IMG/VR virus record: IMGVR_UViG_3300042562_000881
Span: 1 to 27,162 of that record
Length of the DNA stretch: 27,162 nt
Direction: 5' to 3' (one strand)
Origin: a virus
Within the stretch, counting starts at the first letter, position 1, and each line of letters begins with the position of its first letter. The position numbers and the translations under genes were made by a program. Below, piece after piece: positions 5,027-17,676 of this stretch. A model generated the notes under the pieces. It saw only the letters and a list, made by a program, of their open reading frames with translations, searched no databases and was not told the origin of the DNA.

Positions 5027-5377
5027 TCAAACGAGGGATGCGCCGTCAATGTCGGCGGACTCACGGACGGCCGGCGCGGATCCGCATCGGTCACGGCACT
5101 CGGCAGGGTTGGTGCATCCGCAGCGCGGACACTCACCTGGCGCTGATCGACGGGCGATGGCATCGCGGATCGTGCGGCCGTTGCGAACGAACCCCTCAGC
5201 GAGTGCATCAGCGGCGACACCTTGGGCATAGGCGAGCCGGATCGCATGATTGCGGGCCTCGACGCCAGCGAAGTCGTGGCGGTGCGGGTTGTGGACGATG
5301 GACCGTTGCAGCCCGGCGGCCTTGGCGGCTTCGCGGATGGATTCGCAGATGATGATGGAGGCTTGGTTGGTGGTCAT
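5027..5377 (-). CDS. Small protein with HTH-like helix and Cys-rich putative zinc site
   Basis: 116 residues, family not recognised. Residues 45-80 contain LAYAQGVAADALAEGFVRNG then RTIRDAIARR, which reads like an HTH (recognition helix about 68-78). It is followed by a cysteine cluster CPRCGCTNPAECRDRC (about 86-101) that could bind zinc. This suggests a nucleic-acid-binding protein, perhaps a regulator of the adjacent SSB-like gene or of the structured region. ATG 5377 is chosen because the CCAACC start motif lies just upstream (CCAACCAT-ATG), within two direct copies of CAACCCTATGC. An upstream start at 5443 is possible but would add a poor N-terminus. Confidence 0.68.
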   Translation of the reverse strand: MTTNQASIIICESIREAAKAAGLQRSIVHNPHRHDFAGVEARNHAIRLAYAQGVAADALAEGFVRNGRTIRDAIARRSAPGECPRCGCTNPAECRDRCGSAPAVRESADIDGASLV

Positions 5378-5459
5378 ATGGTTGGCATAGGGTTGGCATA
5401 GGGTTGCCGCTGTGCCGTGCTGCTCCCGACATAGGACCGGCATCAGCGGCGCTGGAAAG

Positions 5460-8102
5460 TCAGAACGGCACCGACACCGCCCGCTGCCGGATGTTGAGGC
5501 CGAAGTTCATCACATCGTGCTTCTCGTGCCCTGGCACTCGCTCGAGCTGCTGCCGCCACTTCGCGCCCGCCCATGGCGTATCCGCGAAGATCCGCTCGAG
5601 CGCCGGGTGGCGGTTGGCGATGCTGGCGCGGCCGTCCTTGATCAGGATCCCGTGCCGGCGAAGGGCGTCGCGGGTCTCATTCCGCTCGCCGAGTTGGTCG
5701 TTTGACAGGTAGGAGCCCGACACGTTGGCGATTGCCACGGCCTCGGAGATCGACCGAGTGAGCGGGCGTCCCACGATCTCGTAGCGGATCGACGCGGCGA
5801 ACAGGTGGCTGAGGCATTGGTTCTCGTCGTTGTCGATCTCCTCGGCCTTGAAGCCGGTCCAGTCCTGCTTCGCCATCCAATCCTTGGCGAACTCCTCGGT
5901 GGCGATCCGCGTGGAGGTCAATGAGAACGCGCCGGCGAGCAGCGTGCCGAGCTGGTCGGCTGACCGCTTGTCGCCGGTGAATTCGACGGCCACCGAGGAG
6001 AAGGTCTCCGCGTTGGCTCGGAGCGTCTTCGCGTTGGCGAGGGATCGGGCGCGGATCTGCTCGGCGAATCCCTTCCGCTGCACGGTGTCGATCCACAGCG
6101 CCTTGACAATCTGGAAATGCTCCTGCGAGCATGGCCCGTTGTTCTTCCTCAACTGGAGGACCGTCACGCGTGATACGTCCGCCTTCTTCACCGCGGCGAC
6201 GCCGATCGAGGCGAACAGGAAGCACGAGCGCACCATGTAGTCGATGGCCCCGCCGCCTGCGCTGCCCTTCGTGATCCGGGCCTTGCTCTCGCTCGACGCC
6301 TGGCGGGCGAGTTCCAGCACGCCCTCGAGCCGCTGCTGGCCCCGCTTGTCCTCGCTTTCGGCCTCGTCAAAGACGACCGGCAGCGCGTCGGAGCCGATCT
6401 TCTGGCGTAGGCCGGCCTCGGTCGTCGCGCCCTGGACGTGAATCGCGGAGTCGCCGACGATGGGTGAGATGATGTTGGCGACACTCCAGCTCTTCCCGGA
6501 TCCGGACGGCCCGGTAAGCCACAGGTGAGGCCTCCAGACGAGCGCCCCGCAGATCGGCGCGATGGCGAGCCACCCGGCGAGGAGTTTGCCGTAGAGCGGG
6601 CGCTCCCAACTCAGCATCTCGCAGAGTTCGATCAGGCGGGCCGCGGTGCGGTTGTCGGCCCCGTCGCCGGAGTCCACGGGGATCTCCAGCGCCCCCTCGT
6701 AGATCGCCCGCACGGATGAGGAGAACTGCGGGATGGGTCGGGCGGTGCCGTTGATGACCAGCCGGTCGCCAGCGTGGAAGACAACATCGTCGCCGTCGAT
6801 CCAGCACCCGCGCCCACGGATCCGCTGCGGGTCGAATTTAGGCAGCCCCTGCGACCGCTGGATGAGCGCATTGACCGCCTTGTCCCAGCCCTTGCCAGTG
6901 AGGTCGCCGTTGTCGGCATACTCGGCCTCCCATGCGTTCAGGACCGCCAGCCGCATGAGGTTGTTCTTGGAGTGGCTGGATGCGGTGAGGGAAACCACCT
7001 GCTGGCCCTTGTCCGGCATGTAAAAAAACGAGTCACCATCGACTCCGAGCAGGCGGAACGGCAGGCCTTCGATCCGGTCGTCCTGCCGAGGCTTGGCCGG
7101 CGGCTGTGCCTGCACGGGTTGCCATGGCTCGACCTCGTCCTGCGGAGAGTCCTGCTCGGGCATCGGATCGGCCTGCGGCTTCATGGCCTCGATGAGTCGC
7201 GCCCGGTCCCAGCCTTCGGCCACGGCGTCGGCCAGATCCCAGCCGTCCTGCGGTCCTGCCGGCGGCGTGACGATGCGGACCTTCGCGGCGATCCCGGCAA
7301 GCGTCTTCGAGATGGCTCTGGCGGCTTCAATGCCTGGCGCGTCCCGGTCTGGCCAGATGACGACCTTGCGGCCGGCAAGCGGTGACCAGTCGGCGTAGCG
7401 GACAGCTTTCGATCCACCCGGCCACGTCACGACGACACCCGGCGAGATCTTACTCGCCGCATCGGCGGCTTTCTCGCCCTCGACGATCAGCACGCCGGCG
7501 TCTGGGTTGGAGGCGAGTAGGTCGAGGCCGTAGAGCGGGCGCGGTTTCGCGAAGGACAGCCAGCGCCACTGCTCGCGGCCATCGGTGTGGCGCGCCCATG
7601 TCAGCGGCACCACCTGCTTCGCGCCGTCGGGCAGGTCGAAGCGGCAGACAGCACCGAACAGGCAGCCAGTAGCGTCCCGGTATTCCCAGACGCCGGACGA
7701 TGTACCATAGCGGTGGTGCTGGATCCGCTCGGGGAGTCGCGTGCCGAACGGCGCGGTCGTCGGCATCCACTCGGCCGGGGCGGCAGGCTTGGGTGCTGCG
7801 GTCACGCCCTGCGACTCGATCCCGGTGCGGAACCGCTCGCCGATCTCAGCGGCGGCGTCCTTCATGGAGCAGGACCGGATCGCAGCGAGCAGGGAGATCG
7901 GATCTGATCCTCCGGCGTCGGAGGAGAAGTCCTTCCATACGCCGGTGCGGGCGTTGACGCTGAGGGACCGGCCAGGCTCGCCTGAGAGGCTGCCGATCTT
8001 GAACTCGTGGCCCTCGCGGTGCCCGTGCGGGAACCATTCGTAGAGCAGGGATTCAAGGGATGAGAGGGCGGCGGCGTTGATGGCCGCGAAGTCGATTTTC
8101 AT
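5460..8102 (-). CDS. Toprim primase-helicase fusion
   Basis: 880 residues. Residues 1-100 resemble a primase N-terminal region (FSSDAGGSDPISLLAAIRS) but show no Cys/His zinc-finger set. Residues about 200-300 are a Toprim domain: VLIVEGEKAAD (204-214) with its Glu, and WPDRDAPG (250-257) giving the DxD. A Pro/Gln-rich linker (310-345) leads to a D5/DUF927-like ATPase with Walker A GPSGSGKS (531-538) and Walker B LPVVFDEAE (574-582). It would prime and unwind DNA at the phage fork. ATG 8102 has the long CCAACC leader directly before it; a TTG start at 8165 is disfavoured because its added Pro/Thr-rich residues lie over that leader. It follows two tiny genes by a 59-bp gap. Confidence 0.88.
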   Translation of the reverse strand: MKIDFAAINAAALSSLESLLYEWFPHGHREGHEFKIGSLSGEPGRSLSVNARTGVWKDFSSDAGGSDPISLLAAIRSCSMKDAAAEIGERFRTGIESQGVTAAPKPAAPAEWMPTTAPFGTRLPERIQHHRYGTSSGVWEYRDATGCLFGAVCRFDLPDGAKQVVPLTWARHTDGREQWRWLSFAKPRPLYGLDLLASNPDAGVLIVEGEKAADAASKISPGVVVTWPGGSKAVRYADWSPLAGRKVVIWPDRDAPGIEAARAISKTLAGIAAKVRIVTPPAGPQDGWDLADAVAEGWDRARLIEAMKPQADPMPEQDSPQDEVEPWQPVQAQPPAKPRQDDRIEGLPFRLLGVDGDSFFYMPDKGQQVVSLTASSHSKNNLMRLAVLNAWEAEYADNGDLTGKGWDKAVNALIQRSQGLPKFDPQRIRGRGCWIDGDDVVFHAGDRLVINGTARPIPQFSSSVRAIYEGALEIPVDSGDGADNRTAARLIELCEMLSWERPLYGKLLAGWLAIAPICGALVWRPHLWLTGPSGSGKSWSVANIISPIVGDSAIHVQGATTEAGLRQKIGSDALPVVFDEAESEDKRGQQRLEGVLELARQASSESKARITKGSAGGGAIDYMVRSCFLFASIGVAAVKKADVSRVTVLQLRKNNGPCSQEHFQIVKALWIDTVQRKGFAEQIRARSLANAKTLRANAETFSSVAVEFTGDKRSADQLGTLLAGAFSLTSTRIATEEFAKDWMAKQDWTGFKAEEIDNDENQCLSHLFAASIRYEIVGRPLTRSISEAVAIANVSGSYLSNDQLGERNETRDALRRHGILIKDGRASIANRHPALERIFADTPWAGAKWRQQLERVPGHEKHDVMNFGLNIRQRAVSVPF

Positions 8103-8161
8103 GGTTGGTTGGTGGTTGGTGCGGTTCGGATCTGTTGCAGTTGGGCGGGCGGGTGGCAAGT

Positions 8162-8359
8162 TCAATTCTGGTTTTCAGACTCACCCGCATGGAATGCCTG
8201 GAGGGCGTCGCGGATCAGTTCGGCCTTGCGTTTGCACGATGTCAGGCAGACGCGGCTTTGGTCGCGGGTGTCGCCGACTTCCCACTCGTGCCACTCTTGG
8301 AGCTTCACCAATGAGCCGAGAAGAGTGCCGGGTTCGGCGATAAAAAAACGGGGTTTCAT
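8162..8359 (-). CDS. Small protein of unknown function
   Basis: 65 residues, not recognised. It is predicted mixed alpha/beta, with a Trp-rich centre (LQEWHEWEVGD) and two Cys four residues apart (CLTSC) followed by a basic, helical KRKAELIRDALQAF. It starts by an ATGA overlap with the upstream gene and has AATCAACC before its ATG. It ends in ESENQN, similar to the ETQNQP end of the upstream gene, though the bodies differ. Position suggests an accessory role in phage replication or takeover of the host; no function can be assigned. Confidence 0.68.
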   Translation of the reverse strand: MKPRFFIAEPGTLLGSLVKLQEWHEWEVGDTRDQSRVCLTSCKRKAELIRDALQAFHAGESENQN

Positions 8360-8553
8360 GGTTGATTCTGAGTTTCGCCCTCGTCCCAGCCCGCCTCGTA
8401 GGCATACCAGCGGAGCGTCCGGGGTGGCTGGTCGTTGTCCCAGTGGCCCCTGCGGGCGTCGTCAAAGCCGGTCTGGAAGATCGACTCCAGCGCCTTCCAG
8501 TGCGGGCTGCGCCGGAGCTGTAGCAGGGTCGGCGGGATAGGTGGTTGTGGCAT
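8356..8553 (-). CDS. Small protein of unknown function
   Basis: 65 residues, not recognised. Pro-rich start (MPQPPIPPTLLQLRRSP), then an aromatic-rich helical part with WKALESIFQTGFDDARRGHW and WYAYEAGWDEGE. Starts two bases after the VRR-NUC stop, reading TAACC-ATG, so stop and start motif are merged. Overlaps the next gene by ATGA. Probably translated by re-initiation. Small proteins with the ARRGHWxxD... AYEAGWxxG pattern are known from phages without a defined function. Confidence 0.7.
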   Translation of the reverse strand: MPQPPIPPTLLQLRRSPHWKALESIFQTGFDDARRGHWDNDQPPRTLRWYAYEAGWDEGETQNQP

Positions 8554-8555
8554 GG

Positions 8556-8903
8556 TTAGAGCGGGCTGATGATCCCCAGCGCATCCTCCACCGATCGCGC
8601 CACGCCTGCAAGCCCGCCGTCGGCCCGGACCCGTGCGATGAAGTTGCGCTGCTGGTCGGTGGCCTTGCCCCGCTCACCCTTCACCTCGATGGCGAGGAAG
8701 ATCGCGAGCTTCTGGCCGACCATGTCCGGCGTGACGGTCACGGATCGCCAGCCGATCAGGTCGGACCCGCCGGGGTTGGCGACGCCGTAGCGGATGAGTC
8801 GGCCCTCGGCGTCCTTGAGCGCGCCGCAGTTGTTGCGGAAGAGCCGGACGCCGGGAGTCGAGAGGCCGAGCATGATGGCTCGCAGGCGGTTCATTTCGTT
8901 CAT
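8556..8903 (-). CDS. VRR-NUC family nuclease
   Basis: 115 residues. It has the compact VRR-NUC layout: PGVRLFRNNCGALK, then the catalytic-type GGSDLIG (45-51), then LAIEVKGERGKATDQQ (71-85) with the E-x-K and following Gln. Stand-alone VRR-NUC proteins cut branched DNA such as Holliday junctions and are common next to phage SF2 helicases. ATG 8903 overlaps the upstream stop by one base (TGATG), so it is likely coupled. The longer frame to 9242 runs through the upstream gene in another frame and is rejected. Probably works with the helicase and RecE/RecT in resolving replication intermediates before packaging. Confidence 0.88.
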   Translation of the reverse strand: MNEMNRLRAIMLGLSTPGVRLFRNNCGALKDAEGRLIRYGVANPGGSDLIGWRSVTVTPDMVGQKLAIFLAIEVKGERGKATDQQRNFIARVRADGGLAGVARSVEDALGIISPL

Positions 8904-9397
8904 CAGAAGAGGTCTGGTTGTGGAGTTGGTTGGGCGGGTTGTGGATCCTCGATCACCGGCGGGTTCGCGATCTGCTCGCAGACCTCCATCGCGTAGCCGC
9001 TGAGTTCGTGGATGAGTTCGGCGAGGGTTTGGCCGGGGTGGGGTTGAAGGTTGGCGATGGATTTGAAGACCGCGTTCCTGTTGTAGAGACTCGCCTGCCA
9101 TGATTGGAATGATGATCCGTTTTCTCCGGCGAAGCGTTTTCGGCGTAGCCATCTCCGTTTCATCTCCGCATGATTCTCTTTGTTGGCTTCGCGCCATCGG
9201 CGTTGCTGCTCCGTCTGCTTCACCTTGTTGCCTTCGCGCCATCGGTGTAGCCGCTCCGTCTCCTGCTCCTTGTTGGCTTCTCTGTATCGGCGTTGTCGCT
9301 CCGCGTTCTTCTCCTTGTTGGCCTCCTTGTTAGCTTCCCAGTATCGGCGCTTTTGTTCACGCAGCCGCGCCCTCCTCTCCTCCGGTGTCATACTCAT
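8903..9397 (-). CDS. Lys/Arg-rich 15-residue-repeat protein with clamp-like C-terminal tail
   Basis: 164 residues. The first half is four to five imperfect 15-residue repeats of the type RRYREANKEQETERL, very basic and predicted helical; the pattern resembles the basic N-terminal stretches of some HNH endonucleases, but no HNH motif is present. The second half has a helical AELIHELSGYAMEVCEQIAN. The protein ends QPTPQPDLF; QPDLF matches the sliding-clamp binding pattern Q-x-x-L-F. I infer a DNA-binding accessory factor that may contact a clamp; this is not established. Start ATG 9397 overlaps the helicase stop as ATGA and has a purine-rich GGAAGGGGG upstream. Confidence 0.72.
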   Translation of the reverse strand: MSMTPEERRARLREQKRRYWEANKEANKEKNAERQRRYREANKEQETERLHRWREGNKVKQTEQQRRWREANKENHAEMKRRWLRRKRFAGENGSSFQSWQASLYNRNAVFKSIANLQPHPGQTLAELIHELSGYAMEVCEQIANPPVIEDPQPAQPTPQPDLF

Positions 9398-10773
9398 CGC
9401 AGCACCCCCTTCCGCGAGTTCCACACGTGCTTCGCCCAGACATCCGGCGAGCGGTAGCCCCGCGCCCGTCCCAGCGCGATCAAGTCATCCAGCGTTTGCG
9501 CCGATCCCTGCTCCTGCCGTTTCTGGCGGGCGATCTCCTTCGGGTCGATCTGCACCAGCTCGCCCTCGGCCTGCTCGATCTCGCGCTCCTTCTTCGGATA
9601 CTCGAACCCGCACTCCGGGCAGACCGGCGCTGGCGGGTGACAACAGTAGCACTCCCTGCACTGCCGCTGCTGGATCTCCTCCTCGTCGCTGGCCTTGCGC
9701 TTCTTCTTCTTCCGGCCCTCCAGCGTCCAGTCGCGGACATCCTCAGCGAACCCGTGGCGGGACAGGTTGCCTACGTGGTCGAGGATGATCGCCTTCGTCT
9801 TCCCCGGTGCCGGCCGCAGCACCCGACCGATCTGCTGGAGGTGCAGCCCCAGCGACTTCGTCGGCCGGAGCAGGATCGCAGCGGTGACGAGCGGCAAGTC
9901 GAAGCCCTCGTTGATGATCTCGCAACTCGTCAGGACATGCAGGCGGCCGTCACCCAGAGCCCGCACGACTTCCCGGCGTGACTCGCGGTCCATCGTGCCG
10001 TCGATGGTCGCAGCCCTGTATCCCGCGGCGTTGAACTGCTCGGCGACGTGCTGGGCGTGCTTGACGGAGCAGCAGAACGCGACGGCCGGCGCTCCCCGGC
10101 AGATTCTTGAATAGTGCTCGACCGCGTCGCCGGTGATCGTCGGGCGGTCCATCTCGGCGGCGAGTTCGTCCTGGGCGAAGTCCCCGCCTCGGGTGCCGAT
10201 GTGGGAAAGGTCAGCCACGATCGGCGGCGCGAAGTAGACCGGCGGTGCCAGGTGCCCGCCCTCGATCAGGTCGGCGACTTCCGGTCCTCGGATCAGATCG
10301 TCGAACACCTCCTTGAGGCCTCGCCCGTCGAGCCGCTCGGGCGTCGCCGTCACCCCGAGGACGCGGGCCTGCGAGTGATGGGCGATCACCTTTCGCCAAC
10401 TTCCAGCCGTCGCGTGGTGCGCCTCGTCGGCGATGATCAGCGCCGGCCGGAACGAGTCGAGACGCCGGACGTAGGTCTGCACCGACGCCACCTGCACGGG
10501 AAGCGATCGGTCAGGCGTGCGGCCCGCGGCGATGACGCCGTGATCGACACCGAACGCCCGGAGCGTCCGGCAGGTCTGGTCCACCAGCTCCTGCCTGTGG
10601 ACGAGGATGACGACGCCGTTGCCCTTGGCTGCGGTCCCCTGCGCGATGTAGGAGAACAGAACCGTCTTCCCGGATCCGGTCGGAGCAACGACGAGAGGCG
10701 ACCGTTTGCCGGATCGGTAGGATCCGCGAACGCCATCGACCAGGTCGAGTTGGTAGTCTCGGAGGGTGATCAT
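9394..10773 (-). CDS. SF2 DEAH-type DNA helicase with C-terminal zinc cluster
   Basis: 459 residues. Motifs in order: Q-like RDYQLDLVDG (5-14), Walker A APTGSGKT (30-37), DEAH (116-119), GVTATP (140-145), and motif VI QQIGRVLR (313-320). After the helicase core comes a Lys-rich patch and a cysteine cluster (CRECYCC and CPEC, about 372-388) likely to bind zinc. It belongs to the UvrB/Res-like SF2 group, often paired with VRR-NUC in phages; here VRR-NUC follows two genes on. Predicted role: unwinding or branch migration in replication-recombination. The start overlaps the upstream stop (ATGA), and GGAG lies eight bases before the ATG, one of the clearer Shine-Dalgarno sites here. Confidence 0.92.
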   Translation of the reverse strand: MITLRDYQLDLVDGVRGSYRSGKRSPLVVAPTGSGKTVLFSYIAQGTAAKGNGVVILVHRQELVDQTCRTLRAFGVDHGVIAAGRTPDRSLPVQVASVQTYVRRLDSFRPALIIADEAHHATAGSWRKVIAHHSQARVLGVTATPERLDGRGLKEVFDDLIRGPEVADLIEGGHLAPPVYFAPPIVADLSHIGTRGGDFAQDELAAEMDRPTITGDAVEHYSRICRGAPAVAFCCSVKHAQHVAEQFNAAGYRAATIDGTMDRESRREVVRALGDGRLHVLTSCEIINEGFDLPLVTAAILLRPTKSLGLHLQQIGRVLRPAPGKTKAIILDHVGNLSRHGFAEDVRDWTLEGRKKKKRKASDEEEIQQRQCRECYCCHPPAPVCPECGFEYPKKEREIEQAEGELVQIDPKEIARQKRQEQGSAQTLDDLIALGRARGYRSPDVWAKHVWNSRKGVLR

Positions 10774-11030
10774 GTGTGGTCTCCGCTGAGGTGGTAGTTG
10801 CCTCGCTCTTGCCCGAGGATCTTGTCGAAGCCGGACACGAACCCGAGGTCTTGCATCCTTGGATCGCTCGGCAGGCGTTGGCCGACCGCGTCGATCTCGC
10901 GCGCCTGCTCCAAGGTGTGCTTGGGATACTTCCGCAGCAGGTGCCGGTCGTCCTCGCTGAGTCCCGGCGCACGGTCGCGGAGCAGCCGGGCAGCGGCCTG
11001 CTTGGCGAGTTTCATTTCGCGGTCAGTCAT
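10770..11030 (-). CDS. Small helical protein of unknown function
   Basis: 86 residues, not recognised. Basic helical first half (REMKLAKQAAARLLRDRAPG), then LSEDDRHLLRKYPKHTLEQA and a Gly-rich end. Overlaps both neighbours by ATGA (HTH gene before, helicase after). Such tight packing suggests a conserved accessory to the helicase, but no motif supports a specific role. Confidence 0.7.
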   Translation of the reverse strand: MTDREMKLAKQAAARLLRDRAPGLSEDDRHLLRKYPKHTLEQAREIDAVGQRLPSDPRMQDLGFVSGFDKILGQERGNYHLSGDHT

Positions 11031-11206
11031 GGCTTCTCAATGCTGAGGATGATGCTGCGGATCCGGGAAAGGCTCGCAGCCCGCGGCTGGAACTTGCCCG
11101 TCTTCCAGCGCCAGAACGTGGCGCGGTTGACGCCGGCGAGGATAAGGACGCCGGCGATGGTGTGGCCCGCGGCCTTGGCCCGGGATTCGATTTCGGTGGT
11201 TGTCAT
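11027..11206 (-). CDS. Small Cro-like HTH DNA-binding protein
   Basis: 59 residues. The protein is essentially one helix-turn-helix: AGHTIAGVLILAGVNRATFW then RWKTGKFQPR, the standard XRE/Cro arrangement in which the recognition helix carries RATFWRW. It may repress one of the early promoters; the closest upstream is at 11774-11801. The ATG at 11206 is preceded by CATCCAACC and overlaps the upstream stop by ATGA. It was found by reading the minus strand between annotated neighbours. The HTH call is firm, the target is inference. Confidence 0.82.
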   Translation of the reverse strand: MTTTEIESRAKAAGHTIAGVLILAGVNRATFWRWKTGKFQPRAASLSRIRSIILSIEKP

Positions 11207-11322
11207 GGTTGGATGAGGTGAGCAGGCCCGCGGACATCAGCTTCGCCGGGTCCGGGGTTGAGGTGGTTGACGATGGTGACGGCGGCGTAGAAGGCGGCGG
11301 CGAGGATGAGGAGTCGGGTCAT
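11203..11322 (-). CDS. Tiny membrane-anchored peptide
   Basis: 39 residues: one hydrophobic segment near the N-terminus (LLILAAAFYAAVTIV, about 4-18) followed by a short Gly/Pro-rich polar tail. It looks like a single-pass inner-membrane peptide. Overlaps the upstream 48-residue gene and the downstream HTH gene by ATGA. Small membrane peptides of early phage operons often affect host membrane functions or superinfection, but there is no direct evidence here. Its existence is supported by the exact overlaps on both sides. Confidence 0.62.
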   Translation of the reverse strand: MTRLLILAAAFYAAVTIVNHLNPGPGEADVRGPAHLIQP

Positions 11323-11465
11323 GGCTTTGGCAGGTTGCGGAGTTCAAGCCGGGCAGCCACGGCCTTCTCGATGTGCCATCGGCGCGCGTTGGGTTTACCC
11401 ATGCGGCGGGCGTGGCGGGCGAGCGCCAAGCGGTCGCGCATCTCAGAGTGCAGGTCGGTGGTCAT
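11319..11465 (-). CDS. Small basic protein of unknown function
   Basis: 48 residues, strongly basic and helical (RDRLALARHARRMGKPNARR). Starts two bases after the upstream stop as TGACC-ATG and overlaps the downstream gene by ATGA. Could bind nucleic acid through charge; no family recognised. Confidence 0.62.
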   Translation of the reverse strand: MTTDLHSEMRDRLALARHARRMGKPNARRWHIEKAVAARLELRNLPKP

Positions 11466-11467
11466 GG

Positions 11468-11731
11468 TCAGGCGAGGATTGCGGCAACAACGCGGTCAAA
11501 ACGCTCCAGAGCGTCGTCACCGGCTGGCATGGATGCGATCTTGGCGAGGATCGGCAGCGCTTTGGCTTGATCGGCAAGGACCGTCTTGTGCTCGGCGGTC
11601 ATCATGTGGGCCAGCGACTGGAGCATCCCGGCGGCGGCAGCTTGCTCGGCGGTCATTCCGGCGCGGGCGGCCATGGCATCAAACTTGGCTTTTCCGTCGA
11701 GTCCGAAAATCAGTTGGGCGATGGTGGTCAT
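11468..11731 (-). CDS. Ala-rich helical protein, first gene of the replication operon
   Basis: 87 residues, all predicted helix: TIAQLIFGLDGKAKFDAMAA, then AGMTAEQAAAAGMLQSLAHM and a final amphipathic helix. No family recognised. It is the first gene after the third terminator-promoter module; its leader is the longest run of CAACC units (about 36 bases with almost no G) and no Shine-Dalgarno sequence. As a promoter-proximal gene it is probably abundant early after infection. Confidence 0.78.
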   Translation of the reverse strand: MTTIAQLIFGLDGKAKFDAMAARAGMTAEQAAAAGMLQSLAHMMTAEHKTVLADQAKALPILAKIASMPAGDDALERFDRVVAAILA

Positions 11732-11773
11732 GGTTTGTTGGTTGGTTGGTGGTTGGTGTCGGTTGACGGCGTG

Positions 11774-11801
11774 AAACTAGCCCCCTGTCGCACAAGTGCA
11801 A
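11774..11801 (-). promoter_or_regulatory. Early promoter copy 3 (TTGCAC-N16-TAGTTT)
   Basis: On the minus strand TTGCAC (11801-11796) and TAGTTT (11779-11774) are 16 bp apart. Two other intergenic regions have the same hexamers and spacing, each directly after a terminator T-run. From five bases past the -10, the 14-mer CGTCAACCGACACC (11768-11755) is identical to the one at copy 2. Confidence 0.72.
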
Positions 11802-11841
11802 CAATAAAAAGCCCGCCCGCGAAAATAATCCACGGACGGGC
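11802..11841 (-). terminator. Rho-independent terminator before promoter copy 3
   Basis: Minus-strand stem GCCCGTCCG (11841-11833) with CGGGCGGGC (11819-11811), 13-base loop, then TTTTTATTG, which runs into the promoter -35. It ends the unit carrying the winged-helix-like gene. Confidence 0.85.
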
Positions 11842-11863
11842 GAACCGGCGACGAACACGACCG

Positions 11864-12157
11864 CTAGGGCGGCGGGTTGTCAGGGGTGTTGGCTAGAGAA
11901 TCCACCCGCCGCAGCCCCTCCGCAGTCAGCCGCCAGAACGGCCAGCCGTTGCGGTTCTCCTCGGGTCGGACGAGTCCTTTGCTCTTGAGGACAGCCACGA
12001 CGGCCATCGGATCTTTCGAGCAGTGGTCGAGCGCGGCCTTGATGTCGGGCGACTGCGCCTTGCCGTCCATCCCGGCGATGACTCCGAGGGCGATGGCCTC
12101 CCGTGCCCCGACGCCGGCAGCAGCGAGCATCTTTCCAGCGTTAATCAGTGCCTGCAT
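11864..12157 (-). CDS. Winged-helix-like small protein
   Basis: 97 residues. An Ala/Gly-rich helical N-terminus is followed at about 45-90 by a winged-helix pattern: DPMAVVAVLKSKGLVRPEEN, RNGWPFWRLTAEGLRRVDSL. This looks like the last two helices and wing of a MarR/PadR-type DNA-binding domain. It may be an early regulator. ATG 12157 has CTCCAACCG before it; the longer frame to 12433 overlaps the membrane-protein gene and is rejected. Overlaps the upstream gene by 13 bp. Confidence 0.72.
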   Translation of the reverse strand: MQALINAGKMLAAAGVGAREAIALGVIAGMDGKAQSPDIKAALDHCSKDPMAVVAVLKSKGLVRPEENRNGWPFWRLTAEGLRRVDSLANTPDNPPP

Positions 12158-12477
12158 CGGTTGGAGCGGTTGAGGTGGTGCCGGCGGTCGGAGTATTCCG
12201 CCGCGGCGAGGTTGAGTGCCTGCACGCCTATGCAGGCAAATGCCAGCGAAGGCCATGACGGCCCGGTGAGGATTGCCCCGGAGATGAGGATGATCCCGCA
12301 GCTGAGGAATAGGCGGGCGAGCATTAAGCAGTTGCGGGCGCGTAGTTGGTGGTAGTTCATGGGTAAAAAGCGGGAGGGATCGGTGATGCCTGCGCCGGCG
12401 ATCAGGATGATGCCGCAGGCGAGCAACAGGCAAGCAAGCCGCAGGCAGGCGCGGGCGCGTAGTTGGTGGTAGTTCAT
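12145..12477 (-). CDS. Duplicated small membrane protein
   Basis: 110 residues made of two related units: residues 1-39 and 40-78 both begin MNYHQLRAR and continue with a Cys/Leu-rich membrane segment (CLLLACGIILIAGAGI and LFLSCGIILISGAIL). A further hydrophobic segment follows (LAFACIGVQALNLAAAEY). Each unit keeps its own ATG (12477 and 12360) with identical upstream 23 bases, so a 71-residue product from the second start is also possible. The first ATG is only five bases after the T-run of the preceding terminator. Function unknown; membrane location is inferred. Confidence 0.65.
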   Translation of the reverse strand: MNYHQLRARACLRLACLLLACGIILIAGAGITDPSRFLPMNYHQLRARNCLMLARLFLSCGIILISGAILTGPSWPSLAFACIGVQALNLAAAEYSDRRHHLNRSNRCRH

Positions 12478-12500
12478 GGGTAAAAAGCGGGAGGGATCGG
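12334..12500. repeat. 50-bp direct repeat spanning a start codon and half a terminator
   Basis: Bases 12334-12383 and 12451-12500 are identical, 117 bp apart (39 codons, in frame). Each copy covers the first nine codons of the membrane-protein unit, its ATG, the T-run and one arm of the terminator hairpin. The downstream copy lacks the partner arm. Confidence 0.92.
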
Positions 12501-12509
12501 ACCTCCCGC
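12482..12509 (-). terminator. Rho-independent terminator after the coiled-coil gene
   Basis: Minus-strand stem GCGGGAGG (12509-12502) with CCTCCCGC (12494-12487), 7-base loop, then TTTTTA. It lies between the coiled-coil gene and the membrane-protein gene, so the latter is probably expressed by read-through or from an unseen promoter. Confidence 0.85.
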
Positions 12510-12520
12510 GGGGTTGGTGG

Positions 12521-13402
12521 TTATCGTTTGACCTTCAGGTTCTGGAACACCCGGAGCCCTGCGACATCCGGCAGCTTTCCGTTGCGCTCGAAGCTCTTCT
12601 TCAGCGCCGCCAGAACATCAGCCCGCTTCGGTTCGATCCGGCAGAGCTGCGGGAATTTCGCCACGAACGCGAGGATGTCCTCGACATCGAAGTCGATCTC
12701 TTCCCGCACGCCGGCAGGCGCCGGTGCTGCGACGGCCTCCGCTGCGGCGATCCGTGCGGCCCCCTCCCGCTCCCGTGCTGCGGCTGCGTCAGCTTCAGCC
12801 TGGCGACGGGCGGCTTCGGCCCGTGCCTCGGCCTCCCGCTGCGCTGCCAGTGCCTTCTCCTGCGCCTCGCGGGCTGCTCGTTGTCCATCCTCCGACTGCG
12901 CGGCCTCGGCCTTCAGGCGGGCGATCTCGGCCTCATGCGCGGCCCGTTCCGCGGCCTGCCGTTCCCGCTCGATCCGGGCGGCCTCCCGCTGCGCTGCCAT
13001 CTCGGCCTCGTGGCGCTCGCGCTCGACCCGTTGGCGCTCCTGCTCTGCCGCGAGTTCGGCCTCACGCTTGATGCGCTGCTGCTCGCGGGCGTATTCCGTC
13101 ACCAGTCCGGACAGGCGGGCCTCCTCGGCGATGACCTCGGCCACGAAGTCGGCGGCGATCCCGTCGATCCGTTTACCCAGGTCGATGACCGGTGCTTTGA
13201 CCTGCTTGCGGCTCGACTCGACCGCGGTGCGAACGCTGGCAAGGGATCGGAGCCGGGACTGTGCGATGTCGCAAGAGTCGGCGTCAGTGACCGCCACGAC
13301 GGCGCGGGCGGCGTTGATGATTGTGGCCTTCTGCTTCTCAGCTTCGGGCGTGATGGCGATCTGATAGCCATCTCCGAGGATGGCGAGTGCGTTGGTGCTC
13401 AT
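12521..13402 (-). CDS. Long coiled-coil protein of the recombination region (DUF1351-like)
   Basis: 293 residues. The first 100 residues have the pattern of phage coiled-coil proteins encoded next to recombinases: LRSLASVRTAVESSRKQVKA then PVIDLGKRIDGIAADF, and EYAREQQRIKRE. Residues about 105-215 are a long Ala/Arg/Glu coiled coil. The last 60 residues are a separate globular tail (DVEDILAFVAKFPQLCRI to the end). Similar proteins sit beside RecE/RecT pairs and may assist annealing or serve as scaffold; that is inference. The start overlaps the upstream stop as ATGA and is preceded by TATCCAACC. A terminator follows the stop. Confidence 0.78.
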   Translation of the reverse strand: MSTNALAILGDGYQIAITPEAEKQKATIINAARAVVAVTDADSCDIAQSRLRSLASVRTAVESSRKQVKAPVIDLGKRIDGIAADFVAEVIAEEARLSGLVTEYAREQQRIKREAELAAEQERQRVERERHEAEMAAQREAARIERERQAAERAAHEAEIARLKAEAAQSEDGQRAAREAQEKALAAQREAEARAEAARRQAEADAAAAREREGAARIAAAEAVAAPAPAGVREEIDFDVEDILAFVAKFPQLCRIEPKRADVLAALKKSFERNGKLPDVAGLRVFQNLKVKR

Positions 13403-13608
13403 GGTTGGATAGGCTTGCCGTTGATGTCACAGTTGATGCCGGGGATGGGATGCTGGTTGCTGGTCGCCAGCGGCAGCTCGGGGTGGCCGGCGAATGGATC
13501 GGGTTTAGCGGCGGCTTCTGCGATCCGCTCGGCGCGGTCAATGGCTTCGCAGAATCGGGCGAGCAAGGCGTCGACCTGCTCGATCAGTTGTTTCAGTTCT
13601 CGGTTCAT
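13399..13608 (-). CDS. Small helical protein of unknown function
   Basis: 69 residues: an amphipathic helix (ELKQLIEQVDALLARFCEAI then DRAERIAEAA) followed by a Pro-rich tail with DINGKPIQP. Not recognised. Preceded by ATACCAACC before the ATG; its last codons encode the CCAACC motif used by the next gene. It might pair with the coiled-coil protein. Confidence 0.7.
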   Translation of the reverse strand: MNRELKQLIEQVDALLARFCEAIDRAERIAEAAAKPDPFAGHPELPLATSNQHPIPGINCDINGKPIQP

Positions 13609-13654
13609 GGTTGGTATTGTTCCGCGTGTAGGATGCGCGGCCCCCGTTGGAGAT

Positions 13655-13831
13655 TTAGCGGCGGGTCCGTTTGATCCACCAGTGTTCGCCGTTTTTGATT
13701 TCAGTGACCATTGTCTTGGCGGTTTGGAAGCTCAACCCGCGACTCCGAAGAAAGCGGATTGCAGGGATGGTATCGCCATTTCTGGCAGCGAGGATTTCGA
13801 GGACTTCGGTCACTGATGCTTCAAGTGTCAT
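13655..13831 (-). CDS. Small basic protein, first gene after promoter copy 2
   Basis: 58 residues, found by translating the minus strand from ATG 13831 to TAA at 13655. Helical N-terminus (EASVTEVLEILAARNGDTIP) followed by AIRFLRSRGLSFQTAKTMV, which resembles an HTH, and a basic aromatic end (EHWWIKRTRR). Probably a small DNA-binding protein. Its leader is CA-rich with CCAACCGACCAAGACC before the ATG. Confidence 0.72.
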   Translation of the reverse strand: MTLEASVTEVLEILAARNGDTIPAIRFLRSRGLSFQTAKTMVTEIKNGEHWWIKRTRR

Positions 13832-13867
13832 GGTCTTGGTCGGTTGGTGGTGTCGGTTGACGTGCGA

Positions 13868-13895
13868 ACCCTATCCGATGCGGCCCGGAGTGCAA
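13868..13895 (-). promoter_or_regulatory. Early promoter copy 2 (TTGCAC-N16-TAGGGT)
   Basis: Minus strand TTGCAC (13895-13890), 16-bp spacer, TAGGGT (13873-13868). It follows a terminator T-run and shares the downstream 14-mer CGTCAACCGACACC (13862-13849), five bases past the -10, with copy 3. Confidence 0.7.
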
Positions 13896-13898
13896 CAA

Positions 13899-13939
13899 TA
13901 AAAAACCCGCCCCGGCAAAATAAATTCACCGGGGCGGGT
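13899..13939 (-). terminator. Strong Rho-independent terminator after the RecT-like gene
   Basis: Perfect 11-bp stem, minus strand ACCCGCCCCGG (13939-13929) with CCGGGGCGGGT (13915-13905), 13-base AT-rich loop, then TTTTTATTG. It begins 8 bp after the stop codon and runs directly into promoter copy 2. Confidence 0.93.
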
Positions 13940-13947
13940 GGCGAGTA

Positions 13948-14751
13948 TCACCCGAAGATGTCGCCGTCGTCAGTGGCAGGCTGCGCGTCCTTACGCGCTG
14001 CATCCCGCTCCTGGGTGTTTTCGGCGGCCTTGCGTGCCTGCTCGACGTATGGGTCTACCTGCACCGGCTCGGCCTTCGCAGCCTTCGCCTTCTTGGCCGG
14101 TGGCAGCACCTCCACCTCGGCGGCTGGCTCCGGTGCGTCGTCGAGGATTGTTGACTCGGTGCGGGTCGTCACGTTGCGCGGGCGGTCGCCGATGTCCTCC
14201 ACCTCCTCAGTGGCGTGCATCCCGTTGAGGACATCGGGCGCGTAGAGTCGCCCGAAGAACGCGGCGGCACGATAGCGGAGCATCAGCTCCGGCATGGTCT
14301 TCCACTTCGATCCATTCTTGGCATACCATCCTTCTGCCTTGGCCATCGCAATCGACGCCGGCGGGCCTTCGAGGCGCTCGCCGGTCTTGTCGGTCGTCCA
14401 TGCGATGCAGCTCCGATCGTCGCCCTCGCCGGTCACCTCGAAGCGAACCGGCGCGAACCGGCCGCAGGAGTTGAGCGCCGCGATGATGAAGGTGGAGGAC
14501 CAGCTCGGTCGGCCGTGGATGATGTTCAGGTTTTGCATCACCGCGAGCGGCGAGGCCCCGATCCGCTGCGCCATCTCAAGCGCCACGATGGCGTTGCCGA
14601 TGTTCTCTTTTCCCCGGTATTGCTCCGGGACGATGTTGCTGGAGACGAGCGCCAGCGCCATGCGCTGAGCGGACTCGAAGCTGGCGGCGTTGCTGAACGC
14701 GGTGATGGAGTGCGCCGGTGCGGGCGCGACGGTGATGTCGGTGTTGGTCAT
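13948..14751 (-). CDS. recT: RecT-like single-strand annealing protein
   Basis: 267 residues. Residues about 25-190 match the RecT-type annealase pattern: FESAQRMALALVSSNIVPEQ, GNAIVALEMAQRIGASPLAV then MQNLNIIHGRPSWSS, and LMLRYRAAAFFGRLYAPDVL near the end of the domain. It anneals complementary single strands, acting on tails made by the exonuclease encoded just before it. The C-terminal 70 residues are a disordered Ala/Lys/Glu region ending DDGDIFG, much like the acidic tip of the SSB-like protein. ATG 14751 has ACCAACCAACGACC before it; the frame extends to 14844 but without that motif. Confidence 0.85.
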   Translation of the reverse strand: MTNTDITVAPAPAHSITAFSNAASFESAQRMALALVSSNIVPEQYRGKENIGNAIVALEMAQRIGASPLAVMQNLNIIHGRPSWSSTFIIAALNSCGRFAPVRFEVTGEGDDRSCIAWTTDKTGERLEGPPASIAMAKAEGWYAKNGSKWKTMPELMLRYRAAAFFGRLYAPDVLNGMHATEEVEDIGDRPRNVTTRTESTILDDAPEPAAEVEVLPPAKKAKAAKAEPVQVDPYVEQARKAAENTQERDAARKDAQPATDDGDIFG

Positions 14752-14771
14752 GGTCGTTGGTTGGTGTTGGT

Positions 14772-15572
14772 TTATGCCCACTTCGGAAGATCCAGCGTGA
14801 GCGGGCTGGACGAGTAGCCCTGCCACGTGTCGGTGGCAAGGCATTCCCGGAAGGTGTCGAGATCAGTCTGGTATTCGATCCTGCCACGGCTGGTCATCGT
14901 CTCGCTTGAGACGTAAACGGCCACCATGTATGGCGGCTCGGTCTCGACGGCAATGAACACGAAGCCCCGCGGTGCCTCCCCGAACGCGGCCCGGTAGCCG
15001 TCGGAGTAGAACGCGGCCTGCACGTGGTAGCGATACTGTGCCACCGACTTCGCGAAGCCATCGGGTGAGGCGTCGCGGGTGGTCTTGAGATCGACGATCA
15101 CCCCACGCTCGGTCACCGCATCCGGCCTGCACCTGCACGCGATCCCGTCGGCGTTCCAGAAGATTGACTGCTCGATCACCGGCGAGCCTGCTAGCGCCTT
15201 CGCAGCGGCAGGGTGGGATCGCACTGCGTCCCGGATCGCGGCGAGCTTCGCGCCTTCCTCGTTGGTGATGATCTCGCGGCCCTCGGCCTCCAGCTCGAAC
15301 GCGGCCCAGTCGGCCTTCCCGGCGCTGGTGCGGCGGTCGATGCCTTCGGGGCGGGCGATCACGGAGTGAGCGAATACCTCAGGCTCCAGAACGACGGTGT
15401 GCGTCAGCGTGCCAAGTCGCATCGCGGGCGTCTGCTCCTGTGGGTTCTCCCGCCGGTAGGCGTAGAGGTAAGGGGCGCGGCGGATGAGATCCAGCCCGGA
15501 CTTGGAGATCGCGGGCGAGGCGTGATATTCGGCGTTGGTCAGGTCGTGCCTGATGGTGGTTGGTGTGGTCAT
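14772..15572 (-). CDS. recE: RecE-like PD-(D/E)xK exonuclease
   Basis: 266 residues. Features of the RecE/exonuclease VIII (DUF3799) group in order: EYHASPAISKSGLDLIRRAP near the start, GTLTHTVVLEP (54-64) with the conserved His, RCRPDAV (147-153) with the catalytic Asp, VIVDLKTT (158-165) giving the D-x-K, and a QYRYHVQAAFYSDGY motif (179-193). It resects double-stranded DNA to produce 3-prime tails for the RecT-like annealase 20 bp downstream. Some Cas4 and AddB nucleases share the fold, but the RecT neighbour decides the call. ATG 15572 is preceded by CTCACCAACC. Confidence 0.9.
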   Translation of the reverse strand: MTTPTTIRHDLTNAEYHASPAISKSGLDLIRRAPYLYAYRRENPQEQTPAMRLGTLTHTVVLEPEVFAHSVIARPEGIDRRTSAGKADWAAFELEAEGREIITNEEGAKLAAIRDAVRSHPAAAKALAGSPVIEQSIFWNADGIACRCRPDAVTERGVIVDLKTTRDASPDGFAKSVAQYRYHVQAAFYSDGYRAAFGEAPRGFVFIAVETEPPYMVAVYVSSETMTSRGRIEYQTDLDTFRECLATDTWQGYSSSPLTLDLPKWA

Positions 15573-15581
15573 GGTTGGTGA

Positions 15582-15610
15582 GGTAAAGCGCCGGGGATCG
15601 AACCCGGCGC
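15582..15610 (-). terminator. Hairpin between zinc-ribbon and RecE genes; T-arm-like
   Basis: Perfect 8-bp stem, minus strand GCGCCGGG (15610-15603) with CCCGGCGC (15595-15588), and 7-base loop TTCGATC, followed by only TTTA. It may be a weak or partial terminator that lets most transcripts through. Loop and inner stem copy the T-arm of a tRNA. Confidence 0.55.
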
Positions 15611-15620
15611 GGTGGGTGGG

Positions 15621-15851
15621 TTAGGCAATGGCAAGCTCGGCAATAACGCACTCTTGGCAGTAGGCGTTACCGTCGAAATGCTCGGCTGTGAATCGCCCGT
15701 TGCACTTTGGACAGGTTGATTCGGCCTTGCGCATCCATTTATTGCCACCAGTTGCAAGCATTGCGATCCCGAATGGAACTGACTGTGTTGCGCTCAGGTT
15801 GATGAAGTGCGAACCCTTGCGGAATTCAGTGGTGTATTTGGTCGCGGTCAT
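15621..15851 (-). CDS. Small zinc-ribbon protein, first gene after promoter copy 1
   Basis: 76 residues. A basic, Thr/Phe-rich first half (ATKYTTEFRKGSHFINL) is followed by a Cys4 zinc ribbon: CPKCNG then CQEC about 20 residues later. Probably a small DNA- or RNA-binding early protein. ATG 15851 lies after a long CA-rich leader with CCAACCACCAACC; the frame open to 15998 runs through promoter and terminator and is rejected. Confidence 0.75.
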   Translation of the reverse strand: MTATKYTTEFRKGSHFINLSATQSVPFGIAMLATGGNKWMRKAESTCPKCNGRFTAEHFDGNAYCQECVIAELAIA

Positions 15852-15903
15852 TGGTGTCGTTTGGTTGGTGGTTGGTCGTCGCGTTGCTCGCTTCGATGCG
15901 AGG

Positions 15904-15931
15904 AACCTACCCCGCCCCCTGCGAAGTGCAA
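15904..15931 (-). promoter_or_regulatory. Early promoter copy 1 (TTGCAC-N16-TAGGTT)
   Basis: Minus strand TTGCAC (15931-15926), 16-bp spacer, TAGGTT (15909-15904). A short inverted repeat CTCGC/GCGAG lies just past the -10 (about 15886-15902), a possible operator. It drives the zinc-ribbon, RecE and RecT genes. Confidence 0.72.
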
Positions 15932-15950
15932 CAAAATAAATCCACCCGCC

Positions 15951-15986
15951 CCAAAATAAAATCCCCGCCCCTTTCGAGGCGGGGAT
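15951..15986 (-). terminator. Rho-independent terminator ending the late operon
   Basis: Perfect 9-bp stem, minus strand ATCCCCGCC (15986-15978) with GGCGGGGAT (15969-15961), 8-base loop, then TTTATTTTGG. It lies 29 bp past the tRNA 3-prime end and about 20 bp before promoter copy 1. Confidence 0.9.
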
Positions 15987-16015
15987 CATGACACGCACGA
16001 ATTACCCTGGAAAGA

Positions 16016-16087
16016 TTGCAGGGGTGGGAGTCGAACCCACGACCTAGAGCTTATGAGACTCCCGCGCTACCACTGCGCCACCCTACG
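16016..16087 (-). tRNA. tRNA with CAU anticodon (tRNA-Met, partly initiator-like)
   Basis: A full cloverleaf can be drawn on the minus strand: acceptor CGTAGGG/CCCTGCA, D-stem GCGC/GCGC with a seven-base loop containing GG and A21, anticodon stem GGAGT/GCTCT with loop CTCATAA, variable AGGTC, T-arm GTGGG-TTCGACT-CCCAC, discriminator A. No CCA is encoded (TCT follows). Position 1 is C opposite A72, the mismatch that marks bacterial initiator tRNA. However, the three G-C pairs of the initiator anticodon stem and the A11-U24 pair are absent. An Ile2 tRNA with modified C34 is the other possibility. It lies at the end of the late operon between endolysin and terminator. Confidence 0.92.
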
Positions 16088-16198
16088 ATTAGAGTGCCCG
16101 CCCTCATCGCTAGGTTTCCCATGACGGCGTAGAGGGCGAGCTGGCACCAACCAAGATACCGGCGACAGGGTCTCATGCCTAGGCTGGTTGTCAAGCCG
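16088..16198 (-). other. Spacer between endolysin and tRNA with a long hairpin
   Basis: No gene seen. A 10-bp stem (16096-16105 with 16132-16141, one G-U in RNA) with a 26-base loop lies just ahead of the tRNA in transcription order. It may guide processing of the tRNA out of the late transcript; it has no T-run. Confidence 0.45.
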
Positions 16199-16867
16199 TC
16201 AGCGGGTGGCCTGAAAGTGCATCGCGTCCCTGCCGATCAGCCAGCCAAGGCCGACCCATCCCTCGGCGGCGAAATACTCCATCACCTCGAGTGGCATGTC
16301 GGCAGAAACCGGCCACGACTGCGACATCCGGTTAGTGTCCGACGCGAGGTCGATGGCGGCACCGCGAGCGTGGAGACTCGGCAGCGATCCGCCGCGCATT
16401 GGGCGGTTGTTGAAGCATCCAGCGTATTGCGCGAGGATGTCAGGGTGCGTCTTCGAGAGTGCCACCAGCACGCGCTTGAGGCTGTCCGCTACCTTGTCGT
16501 GGCATCGGATCGACTTGACCGGCTTTCCGTCGTATCTGAGCCCGAGTCCTTCGACGTTGACGCTGACCAGCTTCGACTCGTCGCCGGGCGATCCGTAAAA
16601 GCCCTGTAGGGACTCCTGAGAAGCTCGCGGCCAGTTGGCGTCCTTTGGCATCAGTGAGCGCAGATAGGACTGGCAGGCGGCGATTGATTTCGGCCCCCAG
16701 AAGCCGTCAACCTCGACGCCGATCTTGCTCTGGATCCTTTTGATGCGGTCGCGTGTCATGATCTCTTCAGGTGTTAGGTAGCTGATTGTGATCGTCGGGT
16801 CTGGCGGAAATATCGCGTCCCCGATCCGGCCGGCGAGCCAGGCCGAGAACTCGACGAGGAGATTCAC
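16199..16867 (-). CDS. Endolysin: peptidoglycan-binding domain plus M15-type peptidase
   Basis: 222 residues if started at GTG 16867, which overlaps the holin stop as GTGA. A hydrophobic N-terminus (LLVEFSAWLAGRIGDAIF) precedes a PG_binding_1-like unit at about 38-72 (KIGVEVDGFWGPKSIAACQS). The C-terminal M15/VanY-like zinc peptidase has SLHARGAAIDL (His166, Asp173) and RDAMHFQAT (His217) as metal ligands. It would cut peptide cross-links of the cell wall at the end of infection. An alternative start is ATG at 16759 (MTRDRIKR). The frame extends to 17035 but the extra part is a shadow of the holin gene. Holin and endolysin form the lysis cassette. Confidence 0.85.
   Translation of the reverse strand: MNLLVEFSAWLAGRIGDAIFPPDPTITISYLTPEEIMTRDRIKRIQSKIGVEVDGFWGPKSIAACQSYLRSLMPKDANWPRASQESLQGFYGSPGDESKLVSVNVEGLGLRYDGKPVKSIRCHDKVADSLKRVLVALSKTHPDILAQYAGCFNNRPMRGGSLPSLHARGAAIDLASDTNRMSQSWPVSADMPLEVMEYFAAEGWVGLGWLIGRDAMHFQATR

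Positions 16868-17202: not shown

Positions 17203-17676
<474 letters not shown>

Follow-up and report, generated by a model that had tools for sequence, protein, structure and literature searches.

How are start codons recognised in a phage whose genes almost lack Shine-Dalgarno (SD) sites? This question is raised by a 27,162-base virus record of IMG/VR (IMGVR_UViG_3300042562_000881, the whole stretch being referred to as the window), which has a GC content of about 63% and carries all of its called genes on the minus strand. In this DNA, the hexamer CCAACC and a CC directly before ATG recur at gene starts. A preliminary description had proposed that this context replaces SD and had listed 11 minus-strand starts with CCAACC within 30 nt of the ATG. 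In this study, we called the starts from codon usage alone, with the upstream sequence ignored. All 11 listed starts had CCAACC within 30 nt (11/11), a twelfth case absent from the list was found at 8903, and the earlier tallies agreed with those of the motif-blind caller (37 starts, 22 with CC and 15 with ACC before ATG, 4 with an SD-like site). SD-like sites, defined as GGAG-like and a few nt before the start, were found at 4/37 starts, which does not fit SD-led initiation.

CCAACC at the starts of the window and of related phages

CCAACC was present in positions -30 to -1 of 12/37 window starts, compared with a mean of 0.97 for random minus-strand positions and 1.8 (maximum 7) when the upstream 30-mers were shuffled. 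It was found upstream of 0/103 in-frame internal ATGs. The minus strand held 34 copies against a first-order expectation of 9.2, and 18 of these lay within 30 nt of a start; the plus strand held 2, so that both strands together had 36 copies vs 13.5 in shuffles. As described earlier, the motif also occurs where it must be coding, at the overlaps 13399/13402 and 11203/11206.

We then examined related phages. Searches with the exonuclease and the primase returned 80 and 14 loci, respectively. Where exonuclease identity exceeded about 53%, most loci showed an approximately two- to fivefold excess of CCAACC on the coding strand; at 48-51% identity, the excess in most loci was about two- to fourfold. 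In more distant loci, several of which use SD sites (28% in the phageD group), the motif was for the most part weak or lacking. An unbiased 5-mer search before the starts of close relatives ranked AACCA, ACCAA, CAACC and CCAAC highest, and CAACC preceded 63/165 of these starts vs 8.6 expected. In a non-redundant set of starts from 13 related contigs, from which similar leaders had been removed, CCAACC was found at 78/317 starts vs 7/619 internal ATGs. Starts with an intergenic leader of at least 20 nt had the motif in 60/138 cases and operon-internal overlaps in 18/179. Dinucleotide shuffles of the 138 intergenic leaders gave 10.6 +/- 3.2 (maximum 20), and any other C4A2 hexamer reached at most 21. 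Since the shuffles fall short of the observed count, selection appears to act on the word itself and not on composition alone. With its flanks included, the word reads ACCAACCA, as A precedes CCAACC in 72/85 cases and follows it in 56/64. The distance to ATG was variable, with an offset of 0 the commonest (29 copies), and tandem copies were mostly 4 or 7 nt apart, 4 nt being the commonest spacing. SD-like sites occurred in 3/138 intergenic leaders, below their frequency at internal ATGs (77/619).

Conservation was counted over orthologues with distinct leaders. Orthologous starts had CCAACC in 36/63 cases for motif genes vs 4/54 for non-motif genes (p = 6e-9). It was retained in 8/8 primase orthologues (93 to 65% identity), in which the remaining leader had turned over, in 9/11 orthologues of the gene starting at 13402, and in 3/3 for the genes starting at 11731 and 13608. 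No structural gene of the window has a CCAACC leader, and the motif is confined to the replication/recombination region. The preliminary description had named composition and kinship as tests of its proposal; shuffled sequences did not reach the observed count, and orthologous starts in related phages kept the motif. The idea of an SD-replacing context thus stands as a systematic, sequence-specific ACCAACC/CC-ATG context with almost no SD in conserved, presumably early genes, with the refinement that it is strongest where an intergenic leader precedes the gene. Two further contigs (L271 and L270) have ACCAACC leaders and little shared gene content; L271 has a GC fraction of 0.52 and ACC-ATG at 6/12 starts.

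Promoter pattern and structure of the leaders

As shown in Table 1, the genes starting at 11731, 13831 and 15851 are preceded by the same order of elements, namely a terminator-like hairpin, TTGCAC-N16-TAGNNT, 36-52 nt and ATG. The relaxed pattern TTGC[AG]N-N16-TANNNT had 18 coding-strand matches in eleven contigs, compared with 1.4 in shuffles and 0 antisense; because the pattern was defined on the contigs where it was counted, this count is descriptive only. A start lay within 60 nt downstream of 17/18 matches, and CCAACC was present in each of the 17 leaders. A classical sigma-70 scan of the window found no promoter at these leaders. As the promoter pattern lies some way upstream of the AUG, the predicted leader length is about 16-45 nt, which bears on leaderless initiation. 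Judged by eye, a short hairpin opens several leaders, and the rest of these leaders is mostly A/C. At -10 to 0, the predicted unpaired fraction reached 0.81 at motif starts; it was 0.57 at other intergenic starts and 0.46 at random positions.

Stand-alone hairpins with a T-loop-like loop (TTCRANY) were seen 14-30 nt before motif-bearing starts, at 15588-15610 in the window and before the exonuclease in L001, L004 and L005. In L014 and L017 they precede other genes. No tRNA body was seen at the window hairpin, and loops with permuted letters occurred a single time across all loci tested. These hairpins are possibly processing sites or tRNA remnants; as a general component of the leaders they were rejected, there being few cases only.

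Table 1. Positions of leaders, predicted promoters and hairpins in the window
Feature	Position	Strand	Details
Leader of gene 5027-5377	5378..5407	-	CCAACC 5380-5385 and 5391-5396, within CCTATGCCAAC repeat
Leader of primase/helicase gene 5460-8102	8103..8132	-	CCAACC at 8103, 8107, 8114
Leader of VRR-NUC gene 8556-8903	8904..8933	-	CCAACC 8928-8933; kept in 1/9 orthologues
Leader of gene 11027-11206 (weak HTH-like match)	11207..11236	-	CCAACC 11207-11212, in end of gene 11203-11322
Predicted A/C-rich 5'-UTR of gene 11468-11731	11732..11773	-	CCAACC at 11740, 11744, 11751
Predicted promoter TTGCAC-N16-TAGTTT	11774..11801	-	Pattern match
Terminator-like hairpin	11811..11841	-	Directly upstream of promoter 11774..11801
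Leader of gene 11864-12157	12158..12187	-	CCAACC 12159-12164, in end of gene 12145-12477; kept in 0/4 orthologues
Leader of gene 12521-13402	13403..13432	-	CCAACC 13403-13408, in end of gene 13399-13608
Leader of gene 13399-13608	13609..13638	-	Small hairpin CCGCG...CGCGG, then AACAATACCAACC-ATG
Predicted 5'-UTR of gene 13655-13831	13832..13867	-	CCAACC 13842-13847
Predicted promoter TTGCAC-N16-TAGGGT	13868..13895	-	Pattern match
Terminator-like hairpin	13905..13939	-	Upstream of promoter 13868..13895
Leader of RecT-like gene 13948-14751	14752..14781	-	CCAACC 14759-14764
Leader of exonuclease VIII-like gene 14772-15572	15573..15587	-	TTTACCTCACCAACC
8-bp hairpin, tRNA T-loop-like loop	15588..15610	-	GCGCCGGG-TTCGATC-CCCGGCGC; 15 nt before ATG
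Predicted 5'-UTR of gene 15621-15851	15852..15903	-	Hairpin CTCGC-ATCGAA-GCGAG, then A/C-rich leader; CCAACC at 15863, 15870
Predicted promoter TTGCAC-N16-TAGGTT	15904..15931	-	Pattern match
Terminator-like hairpin	15960..15987	-	Upstream of promoter 15904..15931

A candidate initiation signal and its relation to known systems

With the motif, its position and conservation, the predicted openness of its leaders, the absence of SD and the link to the promoter pattern observed, the ACCAACCA/CC-ATG context probably serves the phage mRNAs as a translation-initiation signal independent of SD pairing. On the sequence evidence, the best reading is an SD-independent signal on unstructured A/C leaders, elaborated by the phages and akin to CA/ACA enhancers. 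Transcription would start a few bases past promoters such as TTGCAC-N16-TAGGGT and give a leader of the predicted length. Often after a small hairpin at its 5' end, this leader would continue in mostly A and C, with one to several copies of ACCAACC, as far as CC-AUG. Because the A/C stretch would hold almost no G or U, it would hardly fold even in a genome of 62% GC and would present neither an SD nor a competing start codon. The 30S subunit may then land on the A/C stretch, probably anchored by ribosomal protein S1 or another single-strand-binding site, and take the adjacent AUG. The motif genes would be expressed early.

The kinship to CA-type translation enhancers suggested in the preliminary description is supported, the element being A/C-rich, unstructured, tolerant of spacing and near the start. 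ACA motifs have been reported to enhance translation without fixed spacing (PMC3879156), and ACAA repeats to permit initiation without SD (Tzareva et al. 1994, as cited in PMC3879156). The enterobacterial enhancers of yifK and dppA resemble the phage leaders in being A/C-rich near the start, in having several copies with loose spacing, in the dispensability of SD and in the suspected role of S1 (PMC3879156). However, their core is ACA and they mostly assist an SD, whereas in these phages ACCAACCA predominates, SD is absent and the word marks a set of phage genes. Ribosome binding sites that are rich in C and lack SD were selected, and are functional, in a reconstituted E. coli system; such sites are also present in phages (PMC3310771). 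They likewise place a C-rich, Kozak-like sequence right before AUG without SD, and C-rich phage 5'-UTRs were noted by the authors; their words are of the type of CCACC and CGCCC with broad 16S pairing proposed, whereas here one word prevails and the 16S 3' end offers it no extended complementarity. SD is also generally absent from Bacteroidota starts (PMC3155529), whereas the GC-rich phages studied here have an A/C-rich, word-specific leader. In Verrucomicrobiota, the anti-SD is conserved and SD is little used, as here, but no genome-wide ACCAACC array was found in the sampled genomes.

The independent occurrence of the motif in an unrelated pair of Mu-like phages, described below, supports an SD-independent signal. 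Several points weigh against it. Two thirds of the window starts lack CCAACC, all late structural genes among them, and the starts rest on a simple codon-usage caller. The starts at 5377, 8903, 11206 and 12157 are poorly conserved among orthologues, and CCAACC at these sites may partly be due to chance. The promoter count has the descriptive character stated above. Most selected C-rich sites were poor in E. coli cells (PMC3310771). Finally, CCAACC lies far above ACCACC and CACACC, which is more than unstructured A/C or S1 needs, so that a specific reader may exist. It is possible, but we hold it for doubtful, that ACCAACCA is a dedicated ribosome- or factor-recruiting element of several unrelated Verrucomicrobiota phage lineages, which is read by a specific host component and sets phage mRNAs apart from those of the host.

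An SD-independent, CA-like enhancer is a kind of element already known. The open-access literature searched yielded no phage version that is word-specific, shared across a family and linked to a promoter class. Beyond a few models, little is understood of how ribosomes locate starts when SD pairing is absent, and the phage context would offer a compact, conserved and sequence-defined SD-free signal. Genes with and without the motif, many orthologues and varied copy numbers provide built-in controls, which makes SD-independent initiation directly testable. The promoter-leader signature can also be used to find further phages of this type.

Host, rival explanations and gene content

The family consists of uncultured freshwater phages, and the few host clues favour Verrucomicrobiota. 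The tRNA-Met (CAT) gene at 16014-16088 had matches of up to 83% identity (79.7 bits) among Verrucomicrobiota tRNAs; scores against sampled Pseudomonadota were lower, the best being 51.8 bits. When the DNA of 8100-16300 was compared with 388 Verrucomicrobiota genomes, nearly all matches were to this tRNA gene and the others were short and weak. No close prophage of the family was found in the genomes, the best exonuclease match having at most 49% identity. A cyanobacterial host was rejected: cyanophages S-H1, S-CBS1 and KBS-S-2A carry a related primase or exonuclease (about 40% identity) but a different start context, with CCAACC at 0-2% and SD at 18-38% of starts.

An IMG/VR scan for ACCAACCAACCATG, whose matches were mostly chance-like among those listed, led to L219, which forms a Mu-like pair with L357. 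Both have ACCAACC-type leaders, with the motif at 43% (L219) and 18% (L357) of starts. L219 had no protein match to the window's family at E 1e-5, and relatives of its transposase were found in 31/388 Verrucomicrobiota vs 0/150 Pseudomonadota genomes. L219, L356 and L357 are all Mu-like transposable phages with ACCAACC leaders and transposase relatives in Verrucomicrobiota; their transposase had no match in INPHARED. The Verrucomicrobiota genome G058 (contig C103; L379, L382) carries a Mu-like prophage whose proteins are distantly related to two proteins of the window's structural region (26 and 31% identity). Its leaders are A-rich and C-rich (A.38, C.30, G.11), with SD at 2/43 and CC-ATG at 10/43 starts, unlike the G058 chromosome (SD-like 22/95, CC-ATG 6/95). 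The array was not seen in the other sampled Verrucomicrobiota prophages.

These data bear on whether the phages simply copy a host context, in which SD-scarce, GC-rich Verrucomicrobiota would themselves use C-rich CC-ATG leaders. The genomes G180, G189, G153 and G201 are SD-poor with CC-ATG at 23-41% of sampled starts, SD-scarce members of the phylum have been published (PMC10783764), and the motif is common to two unrelated phage lineages. Nevertheless, we regard this explanation as unlikely. In larger samples, CCAACC was found at 0-5% of chromosomal starts vs 23-28% in the phage groups, and the G058 prophage leaders differ from those of its chromosome. No genome-wide array was found in 195 Verrucomicrobiota, 99 Planctomycetota and 99 Bacteroidota genomes; pattern counts were near chance across these 393 genomes, and CCAACCAACCATG occurred at most twice in any of them, although the true host may be unsampled. 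On the alternative of a host-type or a phage-specific signal, which the preliminary description had posed, the array is not genome-wide in the sampled genomes, and plain CC-ATG with SD scarcity does occur in some GC-rich Verrucomicrobiota.

A sequence-specific RNA-binding protein, encoded by phage or host, might instead read ACCAACC(A) and switch early genes on or off. The specificity beyond composition, the flanking A, the 4- or 7-nt tandem spacing and the restriction to the replication/recombination region are compatible with such a reader. We nonetheless consider it improbable, as an RNA-binding domain was recognised in none of ten small proteins of the region examined and the distance to ATG varies with a peak at 0. 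In addition, the same reader would have to serve two unrelated phage lineages and would need to be a host protein.

Pairing with 16S rRNA is far less probable still. CCAACC is complementary to GGUUGG in the 3' strand of helix 45 beside the anti-SD, with exact 6-nt complementarity to GGTTGGATCACCTCC present in Verrucomicrobiota G180 and G109, and C-rich sites have been proposed to pair with 16S (PMC3310771). However, the flanks are A where pairing favours T and G, TCCAACCG was found in 0/138 leaders, and the match was at most 6 nt in 52/60 motif leaders. Other sampled Verrucomicrobiota read GGCTGG, for which CCAGCC is expected, and this was found 0 times. Copies at -6 to -1 would also adjoin the P site, and helix 45 would need melting. 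Since the flanks do not extend the helix beyond six bases and some sampled Verrucomicrobiota read GGCUGG, this pairing is unlikely; it was rejected on the flanks. A functionless by-product of composition or repeat slippage in A/C-rich intergenic DNA, which the differing array lengths among close relatives, an eight-copy run in one L002 leader and the commonest spacing of 4 nt might suggest, has a negligible chance of being correct and is largely refuted by the positioning at ATG, the orthologue conservation despite unrelated leaders, the copies inside coding ends and the shuffle tests.

PHROGs and Pfam gave names in the window for a ParB-methyltransferase, a primase/helicase, a DNA helicase, a VRR-NUC nuclease, a RecT-like annealing protein, exonuclease VIII, an endolysin and a tape measure protein. 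No phage in INPHARED was matched by megablast of the window, nor by tblastn of the 595-residue protein at 21037-22824. The gene at 17203-17676 encodes a C-terminal Pro-Glu repeat (PEPEPEPEP, at 17203-17300). An imperfect tandem duplication was found at 12145-12509, where a stretch opening with CCCTCCCGCTTTTTACCCATGAACTACCACCAACTACGCGCCCGC is present twice, about 120 bases apart, so that the gene at 12145-12477 opens with two similar halves.

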